Assembly (NCBI GenBank): GCA_027006175.1
Contig: JALTKS010000028.1
Location: 28,268-70,481, forward strand
Direction of reading: 5' to 3'
From: Gammaproteobacteria bacterium
Lineage (GTDB): Bacteria; Pseudomonadota; Gammaproteobacteria; AKS1
DNA: 42,214 nucleotides
Shown here: positions 4,183-33,393 of the stretch, piece by piece
How the letters are laid out: each line of letters opens with the position of its first letter
How positions within the stretch are numbered: the stretch's first letter is position 1
Made by a program: the position numbers and the translations under genes
The notes under the pieces: model-generated
The model's input: the letters and a program-made list of their open reading frames with translations, nothing else
The model's database searches: none
What the model was told of the DNA's origin: nothing

Positions 4183-4431
4183 AAATGTGACTCCTGTTAA
4201 TTACCTAATACACATAGCAAAAGCCATGCCACTGGATTCTATTCAGGAATAACACCGCAAATCATGTGAACTTAAAAGAGGAAAATTAAGTTAATTCAAT
4301 TAATACAGTAACTTAGGAGGAGGTAAATCAATAAGCTTTTAAATATAATCAATCTCGATCGTATCGGAATAACGACATTTTTCCGACACATCTGTTATTT
4401 TGACTGCTATCTCATTGATTTTGACACTTGC
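4183..4431. other. fliK-fliL intergenic region with repeats
   Basis: This 249-base non-coding stretch holds the fliL sigma-54 promoter. About 150-200 bases upstream of that promoter lie a 23-base imperfect inverted repeat (4364-4386, arms TCGGAA/TTCCGA) and two copies of GTCAAAAT (minus strand, 4397-4404 and 4418-4425) exactly 21 bases apart. I see no hairpin followed by a T-run, so no clear intrinsic terminator for fliK. Confidence 0.6.
4215..4231 (-). promoter_or_regulatory. Sigma-54 promoter of fliLMNOPQR
   Basis: On the minus strand the site reads TGGCATG-N4-TTGCTA, with GG (4229-4230) and GC (4217-4218) exactly 10 bases apart, against the consensus TGGCACG-N4-TTGCW. Transcription would begin near 4205, about 23 bases before fliL. 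The -24/-12 spacing and location are seen directly; activation by FlrC is inferred. Confidence 0.82.
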
Positions 4432-5631
4432 TTAGACGTAATAATCAACTACATCCTCATTAAATGTTACTTGGCTTACGAAGACATCGTTATCAACTTG
4501 CTCTTGCTCCTGTGAACCTGACCAAAATGAATTCTCTGATTCTTGTTGAGAAGAACTGTTTTCATTCCCCGCTTGTTGTTGATTAAAACTATCGTGGAAT
4601 ATGTCCACATTCTCTAAATCGACACCTTGTTCAGCAAGCATGTCTCGTAATCGTGGCAAGGCTTGTTCAATGACGTCTTTAACACTGCCCTGCTGTGTTG
4701 TAAAAACCACATTTGCTTTATCGTTATCTACATTTAATTGTATGTCGATTCTTCCTAGCTCAGCAGGATTAAGGCGTAATTGTGCTGATTGAACGTTCCC
4801 TACCGACCATACAACCCTCTGAGAAAAGGCTTTTTGCCAACGCGGATCCTGTACTGGAACATCAATGCTCAATTGTGCTGTTGCCGCTGTTCCCGTTGCA
4901 CTGAGTGGTGTCGAATTAACTGTTGATGGGACTGACGCTGCAGGAGCAACAAGCTGCTTTTGATTAAGCTCTGTGAACTTTTCCAATACCCGACCAAGTT
5001 GCCCTGCCTCAATGCCTGCTTCCGCTTGGCGGGTTAAGGGTGAGAATATTTTTTGTAATTGCAGTGTCTCTTTAAATTGCGTGACTGCCTGTGTTTCAGC
5101 ATCGATACCTGCTTCACTAAAGGGCAACAATGAAATAGTCTGGTTCACCGTTTCTGCTTTTACTGGTTGCAACGACGTACTATTAATAATCCTTATTGTC
5201 TCTGTTGAGGTTGGTACGGAAAGACGCGTGGAAAGAACCGGATCTTTTTCTACCGATGCTGAAACAGATGCTTTAATTTGTGATTCAATCACAGGAATAT
5301 TTATCCCTAAAACATCAACCGACTCCTCAGTTAATGAGAGCTCCTGGCTAATATCATCAGAAATCTCTGCAATATCAGCCTGAAGTTGTGTATTAATCGC
5401 GAGAGGCAGACTATTGCCGTCTAACGGCAAACTAACGTTAGTCTTTTCTTCAACCGCCACAGCCTCCGTATTGGCCTCAGTCGCGTTTATCTCAGTACTA
5501 ACATCCGTTAAAACACCGCCAAAACCCCCTTTAGAATCAGTGTCAGATGATTCTGCTTGCGCTGAAGTGTTAGTCGCGCCCGTTTTTGAAGGTGAACTGA
5601 CTTGGATCGGAAAAGGCTGTGATGTCGACAT
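4432..5631 (-). CDS. fliK: Flagellar hook-length control protein FliK
   Basis: Secreted molecular ruler that sets hook length and switches export specificity from rod/hook to filament substrates through FlhB. The N-terminal 250 residues are low-complexity and rich in Ser, Thr, Glu and Ala, as in other FliK ruler regions. The conserved C-terminal domain is clear at about residues 270-350 (LRLNPAELGRIDIQL and the following LPRLRDMLAEQGVDLENV). A Gln/Glu/Ser-rich tail follows. Its 399 residues are within the family range. The ribosome-binding site AGGAG lies 7 bases before the ATG and is the right arm of a hairpin listed separately. Confidence 0.94.
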   Translation of the reverse strand: MSTSQPFPIQVSSPSKTGATNTSAQAESSDTDSKGGFGGVLTDVSTEINATEANTEAVAVEEKTNVSLPLDGNSLPLAINTQLQADIAEISDDISQELSLTEESVDVLGINIPVIESQIKASVSASVEKDPVLSTRLSVPTSTETIRIINSTSLQPVKAETVNQTISLLPFSEAGIDAETQAVTQFKETLQLQKIFSPLTRQAEAGIEAGQLGRVLEKFTELNQKQLVAPAASVPSTVNSTPLSATGTAATAQLSIDVPVQDPRWQKAFSQRVVWSVGNVQSAQLRLNPAELGRIDIQLNVDNDKANVVFTTQQGSVKDVIEQALPRLRDMLAEQGVDLENVDIFHDSFNQQQAGNENSSSQQESENSFWSGSQEQEQVDNDVFVSQVTFNEDVVDYYV

Positions 5632-5635
5632 AGTT

Positions 5636-5670
5636 TTGCTCCTAATTAGACTTACTTAGGTAAGGAGCAA
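5636..5670 (-). promoter_or_regulatory. Hairpin that hides the fliK ribosome-binding site
   Basis: A perfect 8-base inverted repeat, TTGCTCCT (5636-5643 on the plus strand) and AGGAGCAA (5663-5670), flanks a 19-base loop. In minus-strand RNA the arm nearest fliK contains AGGAG, the fliK ribosome-binding site. The distal arm overlaps the -12 element of the fliK sigma-54 promoter and so is absent from transcripts that start there. Confidence 0.65.
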
Positions 5671-5682
5671 GGACTGTGCCAA
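5665..5682 (-). promoter_or_regulatory. Sigma-54 promoter of fliK
   Basis: The minus strand reads TTGGCACA-N4-TTGCTCC, with GG (5679-5680) and GC (5667-5668) 10 bases apart, very close to consensus. It lies directly after the fliJ stop (5686). The predicted start near 5655 leaves a leader of about 24 bases before fliK. Confidence 0.88.
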
Positions 5683-5685
5683 TAA

Positions 5686-6135
5686 TTATATATCCAAATA
5701 CATCGGGCGCACACGTTGCGCGCGCTCATCATTTTCATTTTGTTCCCGCTTATCCTGCGCGCGTATTTCCGCCGTACGATAACGATCTACCACTTTGTTC
5801 AATGCCTCACTACGCGTATGCATTGCCTGCCATTCACGCTGTTTCACCTCAAGCTGACGTACTGCTAATTCTATTTGGCTTCGTTGAAATACAATCGCCT
5901 CATCAAGTCGACGAATAAAGCGCGTGTAATCCTGCATCTGTCCTGCGCCTATTCCTGCACTACCCGCCGAAACCATCTTTTCCACATATTCAGAGCGGTA
6001 TTGAATTAATTCATCTAATTTATTTTTATGTTCTTGTAAAACATTTTGCTGTTGCCCCATATGCCGCGCGGCATCACGCTCATGTGCATGAGCAATTTCA
6101 GAGACAGGCTTTAAGCGTTGTGATTTATTCATCAT
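5686..6135 (-). CDS. fliJ: Flagellar export chaperone/ATPase stalk protein FliJ
   Basis: Coiled-coil protein that sits in the FliI hexamer and links it to the FlhA gate. The 149-residue product is highly charged and almost wholly alpha-helical in character (long Gln/Glu/Arg-rich heptads), as expected. A YTRFIRRLDEAI run at about residues 70-81 resembles the family. The first ATG shares one base with the fliI stop, and a second ATG follows immediately, so either could be used. Assignment rests on the coiled-coil character plus position after fliI. Confidence 0.93.
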   Translation of the reverse strand: MMNKSQRLKPVSEIAHAHERDAARHMGQQQNVLQEHKNKLDELIQYRSEYVEKMVSAGSAGIGAGQMQDYTRFIRRLDEAIVFQRSQIELAVRQLEVKQREWQAMHTRSEALNKVVDRYRTAEIRAQDKREQNENDERAQRVRPMYLDI

Positions 6136-11208: not shown

Positions 11209-12570
11209 TTACCCGGGAAAGACAACGCCATCGTCACGCATGCGTGCCAGCTTATAGCGTAGTGTCCGTGGGCTTATGCCCAGTGTTTCTGCCGCCACTT
11301 TTCTATTACCCATGCAGTTTTTCAATACATTAATAATTCTATTGTGTTCTGTTTTTTTCAAATCACTATCAAGTGTTTCATTTTCTGATTCGCTATTTTC
11401 TATTACTGCCTGTTGCTGTTTAGCAACACCATCAACCGGCTCGTTATGTGCTTGCTCATACATAATATCTCGAGCATCAATCACATTATCTTTATGCAAA
11501 ATAAGCGCACGCTGTAAAACATTATCTAATTCCCGAACATTACCTGGCCAGCTATGTTGCTCTAAACATTTTCCTGCTGATGAATTTATCTTAGGTATCT
11601 TTTTTCCTGATTTAATCGCATGTCTTGTTAGTAGTTGTTCCGCAATAGGAACAATATCTTCACGGCGAGCCTGTAATGGTGGTAACTCTAATGGGAAAAC
11701 ATTTAGGCGATAATAAAGATCTTCTCTAAAATTTCCTGCGGCTACTTCTTTACGCATATTACGGTTTGAGGTTGCCAGTACCCTGACATCCAATGCTATC
11801 ATCTCACTTCCCCCCAAACGCTCAACCTCTCTTTCCTGTAATACACGTAATAGTTTGGCTTGAAGCCCAGTATCCATTTCTGAAATTTCATCTAGCAACA
11901 AGGTGCCACCCTGCGCTTGTTCGAATTTTCCTGCTGAAGCTTTATAAGCACCTGTAAAAGCACCTTTTTCATAACCAAACAATGTCGCTTCAAGCATATT
12001 TTCAGGAATAGCGGCACAATTAATCGCAACAAATGGTTTTTCTGAACGAGGAGAATGTTTATGAATATAACGTGCTAATACCTCTTTGCCTGTACCGCTT
12101 TCTCCGGTAATCATGACTGTCGCTTCACTATCTGCTACTCTTTCTGCAATTCGAAGTACGTTGATTGTTTTTTCAGATATCGCAACAAAATCACTACCCG
12201 CCATGTCAACACCGACATACTGCTCTACGGTGTTAACCAACACCTCGGCATCAAATGGTTTAACCAGATAATCAACCGCACCCAAGCGAATGGCTTCAAT
12301 AGCCTTTTGTACATTGCCATGTGCTGTCATTAACAATACGGGTAGATTCATATATTGTTCTTTAATTACTTTTAATAACGCATGACCATCCATACGCTGC
12401 ATCTGTACGTCACTCACGACCATATCTACTTTTTCACGGCTCAACATATCAATTGCTAGCCTGCCATCATTCGCGGCCAAGGTGCTTATTCCTGCCAGAG
12501 ACAATGTCTCGCAAAGCGCATCTTGTAAATCCTGATCATCTTCAACTACGAGTACCGTTGCGTGATTCAT
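11209..12570 (-). CDS. flrC: Sigma-54-dependent response regulator FlrC (FleR type)
   Basis: Two-component activator of mid-class flagellar promoters. Domains in order: a receiver with Asp54 in VVSDVQMQRMDG, Thr82 and Lys104; an AAA+ ATPase with Walker A GESGTGKE at 156-163 and the sigma-54-contacting GAFTGA loop about 60 residues later; and a C-terminal Fis-type helix-turn-helix (RKVAAETLGISPRTLRYKLARMR). A GAGGT site precedes the ATG. It lies 9 bases after the flrB stop, so the sensor and regulator form a pair. NtrC-family relatives share this architecture; the flagellar context makes FlrC/FleR the best name. Confidence 0.95.
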   Translation of the reverse strand: MNHATVLVVEDDQDLQDALCETLSLAGISTLAANDGRLAIDMLSREKVDMVVSDVQMQRMDGHALLKVIKEQYMNLPVLLMTAHGNVQKAIEAIRLGAVDYLVKPFDAEVLVNTVEQYVGVDMAGSDFVAISEKTINVLRIAERVADSEATVMITGESGTGKEVLARYIHKHSPRSEKPFVAINCAAIPENMLEATLFGYEKGAFTGAYKASAGKFEQAQGGTLLLDEISEMDTGLQAKLLRVLQEREVERLGGSEMIALDVRVLATSNRNMRKEVAAGNFREDLYYRLNVFPLELPPLQARREDIVPIAEQLLTRHAIKSGKKIPKINSSAGKCLEQHSWPGNVRELDNVLQRALILHKDNVIDARDIMYEQAHNEPVDGVAKQQQAVIENSESENETLDSDLKKTEHNRIINVLKNCMGNRKVAAETLGISPRTLRYKLARMRDDGVVFPG

Positions 12571-13854: not shown

Positions 13855-13870
13855 AGCAAGAAGCGTGCCT
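13855..13870 (-). promoter_or_regulatory. Sigma-54 promoter of flrBC
   Basis: The minus strand reads AGGCACG-N4-TTGCTC, with GG (13868-13869) and GC (13856-13857) 10 bases apart. Only the first base of the -24 box departs from TGGCACG. The predicted start near 13844 leaves a leader of about 38 bases. By analogy with Vibrio and Pseudomonas this promoter would be driven by FlrA. Confidence 0.85.
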
Positions 13871-13935: not shown

Positions 13936-15375
13936 TCAGAAATTCGACGCCTCATCGTTACGTTGCAAGCCGTGCTTACGTAATTTCTCGACTAACGTTG
14001 TTCTACGCATGTTGAGGCGTTTTGCTGCGTGAGCAACAACGCCATTAGCCTCATCAAGCGCTTGTTTAATTAAACCGTATTCCAGTTTGAGTAAATGTTC
14101 TTTTAAATCAAAATTATCTTTCGGTAACTGCTGACTAGGATCACGATAACTGTCAACAGGAAATTCATTCAATTCCGCTTCAGGCGTAGATTCTGCAATT
14201 GCAATACCCTGAATACGAAATTTCTCAGGTAGATCAGGTAAATCAACCACACCATAAGGGTGCAAAATAACCAGACGTTCAACCAAATTAGCTAATTCAC
14301 GTACATTACCCGGCCAGTGATATTGGCAAAGCGAGATAATAGCAGCGGGTGTTAAACGAACTGAACCACGTTTCTCATTTTCAAAACGACTGATTAATTC
14401 ATTGGTTAATAATGGGATATCACTGTTTCGCTCACGCAATGGTGGCATTTCAATCGGGAAAACATTCAAACGATAAAACAGATCTTCTCGAAACTCACCG
14501 TCTTTAATCTTGTCTTCAAGATTTCTGTGCGTTGCGGCAATAATCCTGACATCTGCCTTAATACTCTTGTTACTGCCCACACGCTCAAAGGTTCTTTCCT
14601 GTAAAACACGCAGTAATTTAACCTGCATTGTCAGGCTCATATCGCCAATTTCATCCAGAAAGAGGGTGCCACCTTCCGCCATTTCAAAACGCCCCTGACG
14701 GGCAGTAATGGCACCCGTGAAGGCTCCTTTTTCATGTCCAAACAATTCACTTTCAAGTAAATCAGCGGGGATAGCGCCACAATTAATAGGCACAAAGGGT
14801 TTGTCACGACGTGGTGAGTTGTAGTGCAGATTACGTGCAACGACTTCCTTACCTGTACCTGATTCACCCAGAATAAGTACATTCGCTGTTGAGCTTGCCA
14901 CTTGTTCAACCAACTTGCGTACGTGACGAATTGCACGGCTATTACCAACTAAGCTACGAAATAATGTTGATGTGCGCCCTACATCACTGGCGCGCCGACT
15001 TTCGCGATAAATCCGTGCTTTCTGTAACATACTACTGAGTTGCGTATTGGATGCCGGCATGACAATACCGCCTAAAATACCTTCAGTTGAGTCTATGCTC
15101 CCGATTTCCTGCATAACTTCGCTATCACTCAACAACAAGACCGGTACATCTTCTTCAAGCTCTCTAATGGCGGTGAGTATTTCATTTCTATTCTCATCGC
15201 CCTGACAATCACCGACCAAAATGACTTGCACCGTTTCAACTGCTTTTAACTCGGTTTGCCAGGCATCACAGCCGACACTCACCACGTCATTTTGCTCAAG
15301 AAAAGTAAAAATGACTTTCAGATCACTGACACGCTGAACATTGTCATCAATAATCAAGATTCTACTGGTTATCAT
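13936..15375 (-). CDS. flrA: Flagellar master regulator FlrA (FleQ type)
   Basis: Sigma-54 enhancer-binding protein at the top of polar flagellar cascades; FleQ relatives also bind c-di-GMP and FlhG/FleN. The N-terminal 125 residues are a divergent receiver: the acidic pair Asp10-Asp11 is present, but the usual phospho-acceptor motif is replaced by VILVGDCQ. An AAA+ domain follows with GESGTGKE (about residue 170), [13 protein letters not shown] and [12 protein letters not shown], then a C-terminal Fis-type helix-turn-helix ([20 protein letters not shown]). Its 479 residues match FleQ (about 490). There is no good ribosome-binding site before the ATG. FlrC is the alternative reading, but the receiver type and gene order favour FlrA. 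Confidence 0.94.
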
Positions 15376-32911: not shown

Positions 32912-33316
32912 TTATTCACCCTTTAGCGCGGTTAACATGCCCTGCACACGACCTGTAATGAATCGTAGTGTTGCCATGTAACGCATTGAGTTATCTGCAA
33001 AAGCAGCCTGTTCTTTTTGAACTTGAACAGTATTACCATCAAGAGAAGGTTGATCAGGTTGGCGGTATAAACGGTCTGCAAAAAATGCTGTGTTCGAGCT
33101 AGAACCAAAATGCCCTGTTCGTGTTGCTGTCAACTGTGATGCATCAGACTTTTTATTCTCTGCACGATTCAAAATACTTTTGAAATCAATATCACGTGCT
33201 TTGTAGTTAGGTGTATCTGCATTCGCCAGATTTGCCGCGAGTACCGTGCTGCGTTGTGAATAAACTGATAAAGCCTTTGCATGAATGCCGAATACATTAT
33301 CGAGACTGATGACCAT
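32912..33316 (-). CDS. flgB: Flagellar proximal rod protein FlgB
   Basis: First rod subunit and first gene of the flgBCDEFGHIJKL unit. The N-terminus (FGIHAKALSVYSQRSTVLAANLANADTPNYKARDIDF) and C-terminal VQKEQAAFADNSMRYMATLRFITGRVQGMLTALKG fit the family; 134 residues, normal. GGAGC precedes the ATG by 7 bases. A consensus sigma-54 promoter lies about 60 bases upstream. Confidence 0.97.
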   Translation of the reverse strand: MVISLDNVFGIHAKALSVYSQRSTVLAANLANADTPNYKARDIDFKSILNRAENKKSDASQLTATRTGHFGSSSNTAFFADRLYRQPDQPSLDGNTVQVQKEQAAFADNSMRYMATLRFITGRVQGMLTALKGE

Positions 33317-33375
33317 TGTTTTGCTCCGTTCTTACTTGTGTATCTGCCACAAAATGTGACTGTGTATTTGTATAA

Positions 33376-33393
33376 GAGCAAACAGCGTGCCAG
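33376..33393 (-). promoter_or_regulatory. Sigma-54 promoter of the flgB operon
   Basis: The minus strand reads TGGCACG-N4-TTGCTC, a full match to the consensus, with GG (33390-33391) and GC (33378-33379) 10 bases apart. The predicted start near 33366 leaves a leader of about 50 bases before flgB. It is the strongest sigma-54 site in the window. Confidence 0.93.

Follow-up and report, generated by a model that had tools for sequence, protein, structure and literature searches.

A sigma-54 promoter that may double as an anti-ribosome-site in front of fliK in a Sulfuriflexus-like gammaproteobacterium

Results

Organization of the fliJ-fliK region

The analysed window is a stretch of 42,214 nt (GCA_027006175.1, contig JALTKS010000028.1, positions 28,268-70,481 of the forward strand) from the Gammaproteobacteria (GTDB AKS1). 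Judged by its sequence, the source organism is a Sulfuriflexus-like gammaproteobacterium, a sulfur bacterium, and its FliI shares 92%, 84% and 77% identity with the proteins of the other three Sulfuriflexus genomes. The flagellar genes on the minus strand are arranged in the order fleQ-like, fleS/fleR-like, fliE, fliH-I-J, fliK, fliL and fliM, with frames of fliF and fliG size between fliE and fliH. Two genes for sigma-54 activators are present, one FleQ-like (13936-15375) and one FleR-like (11209-12570). The fliJ stop codon (5688-5686) and the fliK ATG (5631-5629, both on the minus strand) are separated by a gap of 54 nt, which together with the adjoining genes contains the following features:

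5686..6135, minus strand: fliJ (Pfam PF02050), the proposed source of read-through RNA
5666..5682, minus strand: sigma-54 promoter core TTGGCACAGTCCTTGCT (-24/-12), with the predicted start at 5655
5663..5670, minus strand: 5' arm TTGCTCCT, the -12 box plus 3 nt, read directly
5644..5662, minus strand: loop of 19 nt, including the predicted start site
5636..5643, minus strand: 3' arm AGGAGCAA, the fliK Shine-Dalgarno (SD) sequence plus spacer, with AGGAG 7 nt from the ATG
4432..5631, minus strand: fliK, hook-length control (Pfam PF02120, E 5e-23)

A sequence-only reading of this DNA had described the AGGAG of fliK as part of a perfect 8+8 inverted repeat, and direct inspection of TTGCTCCT and AGGAGCAA bears this out in coordinates and description. 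The same reading had placed the other arm on the -12 box of a near-consensus sigma-54 promoter. Indeed, TTGGCACAGTCCTTGCT shows one mismatch to the consensus TGGCACGNNNNTTGCW and has the GG-N10-GC spacing, with GG and GC 10 nt apart as in TGGCAC-N5-TTGCW. Counting from 5667, where the C of the -12 GC lies, we arrived at the same predicted start, 5655. As TTGCTCCT lies upstream of this position, it would be present only in read-through RNA. Neither an intrinsic terminator in the gap on the minus strand nor a match above the gathering score in an Rfam 15 search of the whole window was found.

Some additional elements were observed in the region. A second helix, CCUAA/UUAGG (5639-5662, minus strand), lies partly in the loop and represents an overlapping alternative way of pairing the SD, part of which it covers. 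The sequence AGGCACGCTTCTTGCT is located at 13855-13870 (minus strand), upstream of the fleS/flrB-like kinase gene; since the gaps between the genes from there to fliJ are short, it may drive fliEFGHIJ and feed read-through into fliK. A sigma-54-like site, TGGCATGGCTTTTGCT (4216-4231, minus strand), stands directly before fliL and is kept in the three other Sulfuriflexus genomes, with no obvious pairing to the fliL SD.

To estimate how often such a stem arises, we took as background the window plus about 310 kb from elsewhere in its genome (about 350 kb altogether) and considered only genes with a good SD. A perfect stem of at least 8 bp over the SD was found in 1 of 109 SD-led genes, namely fliK, and no other gene reached 7. 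Shuffled upstream DNA produced such a stem in 0.18% per gene, which corresponds to about 0.1 expected in the window. Because the window holds about 45 genes, the fliK stem alone is only moderately significant: it is rare, and for one locus not decisive.

Predicted folding of the fliK leader

Folding of both RNA versions gave the outcome that the sequence-only reading had anticipated: the read-through RNA is predicted to close the SD, and the RNA from the predicted sigma-54 start is not. The calculated cost of opening the SD was 10.5 kcal/mol in read-through RNA versus 3.6 kcal/mol in RNA beginning at 5655. In the minimum-energy fold the helix grows outwards to AGU/ACU and UUGGCA/UGUCGA, and by this extension the start codon is also taken in. 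The 121-nt RNA overall is not unusually stable (z -0.82); according to these models, the specific point of the fliK leader is the position of the helix and not its overall stability. The predicted fold shares two hallmarks of the phage T4 gene e type of leader, as the SD pairs with sequence upstream of the proximal start and the 5' strand is encoded by the proximal promoter, with the -12 box inside the 5' arm.

Conservation in Sulfuriflexus

The order and family of the window comprise four genomes only, so that conservation within the lineage is thin. The sigma-54 promoter before fliK is kept in all four, identical or nearly so. The SD arm AGGAGCAA is identical in two relatives (G002 and G003) and changed in the third (G001). 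In the former two the other arm reads TTGCTCTT, by which one C-G pair becomes U-G; apart from this C-to-U, the arms are the same in all three pairing species. Predicted SD opening in read-through versus sigma-54 RNA amounted to 7.1 versus 3.9 kcal/mol in G003 and 8.0 versus 1.4 kcal/mol in G002. The minimum-energy form in G003 is the CCUAAGUA/UAUUUAGG helix, an extended form of CCUAA/UUAGG.

In G001, the most distant genome, the promoter is intact and the hairpin is absent; TTGGAGAACGACC precedes the ATG, and SD opening costs 3.4-3.6 versus 2.7 kcal/mol. The arms are kept as a pair in two of the three other genomes, with the one C-to-U change giving G-U, and not in G001. Including the window, the pairing is present in 3/4 Sulfuriflexus genomes, and its absence from G001 implies that it is not essential for fliK. 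A search of plasmid records returned distant fliI matches only.

Class-wide analysis of fliK leaders

If the hypothesis is right, a promoter should be more complementary to the SD that it precedes than to the SD of another genome. The sample consisted of fliJ-fliK gaps from Gammaproteobacteria genomes, with Sulfuriflexus excluded. A sigma-54-like site was detected in about half of these gaps, with the predicted start mostly 20-60 nt before fliK. As score we took the duplex energy between the start-site segment and the SD region, in comparison with segments permuted among genomes of similar GC content.

In the first fliK set, segments from -20 to about +7 stood out, and no signal was seen in segments farther upstream or wholly downstream of the start. 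The segment pair -14..+2 by -20..-1 was fixed after this first set and then tried on later loci and on flgB. The later-fetched fliK loci gave p 0.005 (n=23) and family f81 alone p 0.003 (n=13). For fliK overall, the GC-stratified permutation resulted in z -3.84 and p 0.0002 (n=68); after stricter removal of relatives z was -2.9 (n=61), and with one locus per family the median z ranged from -2.8 to -4.2. An earlier, narrower pair (-16..0 by -16..0) yielded p 0.013 for the first fliK set and p 0.0004 for flgB, and was not significant for the new fliK set (p 0.29).

flgB leaders and controls

The sigma-54 leader of flgB, which heads the rod/hook operon, had played no part in forming the hypothesis. 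A site was present in 82 of 90 flgB loci, 68 of which were left after removal of similar leaders. These leaders, again without Sulfuriflexus, served as an independent test, which the hypothesis passed (n=68, z -5.6, p 0.0002, the lowest p that the test can return). The effect persisted after stricter removal (n=50, z -4.8; fliK and flgB combined, z -5.5), when each family contributed a single locus (median z -4.3) and when the five strongest loci were left out (z -3.1).

For leaders of at least 25 nt, in which the two segments are unable to overlap, z was -5.4 (n=94); the strictly untranscribed part paired against the SD gave z -3.35 in leaders of this length. Helices of at least 6 bp occurred in 32 of the 94 leaders versus 17.9 expected. 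Averaged across the class, the energy shift is about 1-1.5 kcal/mol; many leaders lack a helix, and the pairing is a statistical excess in the class and not universal.

No effect was detected for DNA upstream of the promoter (z +0.6), for RNA after the start (z +1.1), for distance-matched segments of other, non-sigma-54 genes (z -1.2 to +0.9) or for fliK loci that lack a sigma-54 site (z +1.5), and a reversed-SD control resulted in z -1.6 (p 0.05). The flgB position map displays hairpin geometry: the farther upstream the first segment, the farther downstream its partner. Moreover, the own promoter segment closes the RNA more than swapped ones do (p 0.001 for flgB, p 0.03 for fliK). The helix of some leaders extends to +1 to +3, and the sigma-54 RNA would therefore retain a portion of it.

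A comparison of co-directional and divergent genes upstream of flgB had no power, with 3 divergent loci after removal of similar leaders, and fliE, a further test, and pspA, a control, offered 4 and 0 loci with a usable strict sigma-54 site. The class-wide tests cover the flagellar sigma-54 genes fliK and flgB, and show complementarity, not function. The predicted start of many flgB leaders frequently carries a small palindrome, YTG/CAA or CTG/CAG, at +1.

The flgB leader of the window itself has the following elements:

33377..33392, minus strand: sigma-54 promoter of the flgB operon, TGGCACGCTGTTTGCT, an exact consensus match, downstream of a co-directional cheR-like gene
33376..33382, minus strand: 5' arm TTTGCTC, containing the -12 box
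33320..33326, minus strand: 3' arm GAGCAAA over the SD, a 7 bp complement of the -12 region; the ATG starts at 33316

SD opening was calculated as 6.6 kcal/mol in read-through RNA versus 3.9 kcal/mol in sigma-54 RNA. In the other two Sulfuriflexus flgB leaders found, 6-7 pairs are kept, with G-U changes, and the corresponding values are 4.0 versus 2.6 and 9.3 versus 1.6 kcal/mol.

Covariation and strongest leaders

Twelve fliK leaders of the f81 genus can be aligned with little gapping, and a helix joins about -4..+2 to the SD. In this register 72% of the cells are paired, versus 25-44% when it is slid by 1-3 columns. Pair 15-39 is U-A in five leaders, C-G in three and U-G in one, and pair 17-37 is C-G, U-A or U-G. 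Column shuffles matched the covariation score in 6/500 cases. Given the relatedness of the sequences, these apparently compensatory U-A/C-G changes in one genus are suggestive but fall short of proof. At loci L222-L239 of this genus, the fliK promoter often starts 3 nt past the fliJ stop; a ribosome terminating on fliJ would then leave the 5' arm just outside its footprint.

Near-continuous hairpins over the SD are predicted for flgB of L353 and L377 and for fliK of L051 and L254. The two flgB leaders are the strongest, with 16.8 (L353, family f90) and 13.4 kcal/mol (L377, family f81) in read-through RNA and about 3 kcal/mol in sigma-54 RNA.

Discussion

With moderate confidence, based on predicted folds, we propose that the sigma-54 promoter doubles as an anti-ribosome-site and may act as a read-through filter for fliK. 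RNA arriving from fliEFGHIJ would carry the fliK promoter sequence, and its -12 region would pair with the fliK SD and, by extension, with the start codon, so that translation is shut. A sigma-54 RNA begun at about 5655 would be without the 5' arm and leave the SD open. The stretch that is melted but untranscribed at the promoter would be the SD-pairing strand when transcribed from upstream, and fliK translation would follow the firing of its own promoter and not transcription of the upstream operon. Here, we infer the read-through RNA, its poor translation, the start at 5655 and the physiological purpose. Two things could prevent the fold: ribosomes that complete fliJ 16 nt upstream, and fast ribosome loading on the emerging SD. 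The interpretation put forward by the sequence-only reading is partly supported overall, and its structural half holds in the models.

A coincidence at the fliK locus, which we regard as rather unlikely, would mean that sigma-54 forces TTGCT and the ribosome forces AGGAG, leaving few further bases to match. The chance frequencies given above (0.18% per gene, about 0.1 in the window) agree with such a view, as do the fourth Sulfuriflexus genome without the pairing, the 121-nt fold that is not unusual overall and the arms that differ by one C-to-U only among the three pairing species. However, the class-wide trend for fliK and flgB survives controls for GC, position, family and overlap, and the flgB leader of the window shows the same arrangement.

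It is improbable that the hairpin serves the upstream message, as protection or definition of the fliEFGHIJ 3' end or as an RNase processing site, with the SD overlap as a side effect. The hairpin does follow directly after the fliJ stop, and the gap lacks a detectable intrinsic terminator on the minus strand, but the position maps centre the second arm on the SD, which a 3'-end element does not need, and the feature is absent from fliK loci without a sigma-54 site and from other genes. Least probable is a symmetry that acts in DNA, either as the binding site of a regulator or as a property of the region melted at sigma-54 promoters (about -12 to +2): the enriched segment coincides with the expected open-complex bubble, and in Vibrio activators can bind downstream of the start (PMC6504787), but the ribosome dictates the sequence of the SD, which is the partner, and the arms differ between species and change in concert, so that there is no common binding site.

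For the preferred reading, the promoter as a filter of read-through RNA, a wider form can be put forward tentatively: flagellar sigma-54 promoters of Gammaproteobacteria may commonly carry an anti-ribosome-site in the melted, untranscribed DNA, so that only sigma-54-initiated rod, hook and hook-ruler messages would be translated, which would add a translational checkpoint on top of the transcriptional hierarchy.

A comparable arrangement is known from the leader of T4 gene e (lysozyme), and also from soc, 49 and I-TevI, where the SD/AUG is paired in a long early RNA; RNA from the promoter just upstream lacks the 5' strand, which the promoter region encodes, and is translated (PMC3014915). The gene e leader and the predicted fliK leader have in common a closed long RNA, an open proximal-promoter RNA and a promoter that encodes the 5' strand. 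They differ in that gene e uses a phage late promoter and fliK a bacterial sigma-54 promoter in place of the late factor; gene e is proven by RNA and translation data, whereas the fliK case is a prediction, and the fliK design, unlike that of gene e, recurs in flagellar operons. In IS10/Tn10, the ribosome site of the transposase message is hidden in RNA that runs in from flanking DNA and not in RNA from the element's own promoter. Unlike fliK, this system belongs to a mobile element, has a sigma-70 promoter as well as an antisense RNA, and serves to keep transposition low.

In Vibrio, the fliK operon has its own class III sigma-54 promoter, and the accessible parts of the two reports describe neither an RNA hairpin nor read-through control for fliK (PMC6504787, PMC8753867). 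Transcription from an own sigma-54 promoter is a likeness between Vibrio fliK and fliK of the window; the link of fliK to the sigma-54 class, which the sequence-only reading had suggested, is not new in itself, since fliK was already known in the class III set, and what is new here is the RNA layer. Searches of the openly accessible literature turned up no account of a sigma-54 promoter built in this way. The sequence test is straightforward and lends itself to any sigma-54 regulon for which start sites have been mapped.

Flagellar assembly needs ordered parts. Since class II and III genes are often directly adjacent, this order should suffer from leaky read-through. A promoter that silences messages it did not start would keep the order without a terminator. 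If true, the design could be reused, as an insulator against read-through that the promoter itself encodes.
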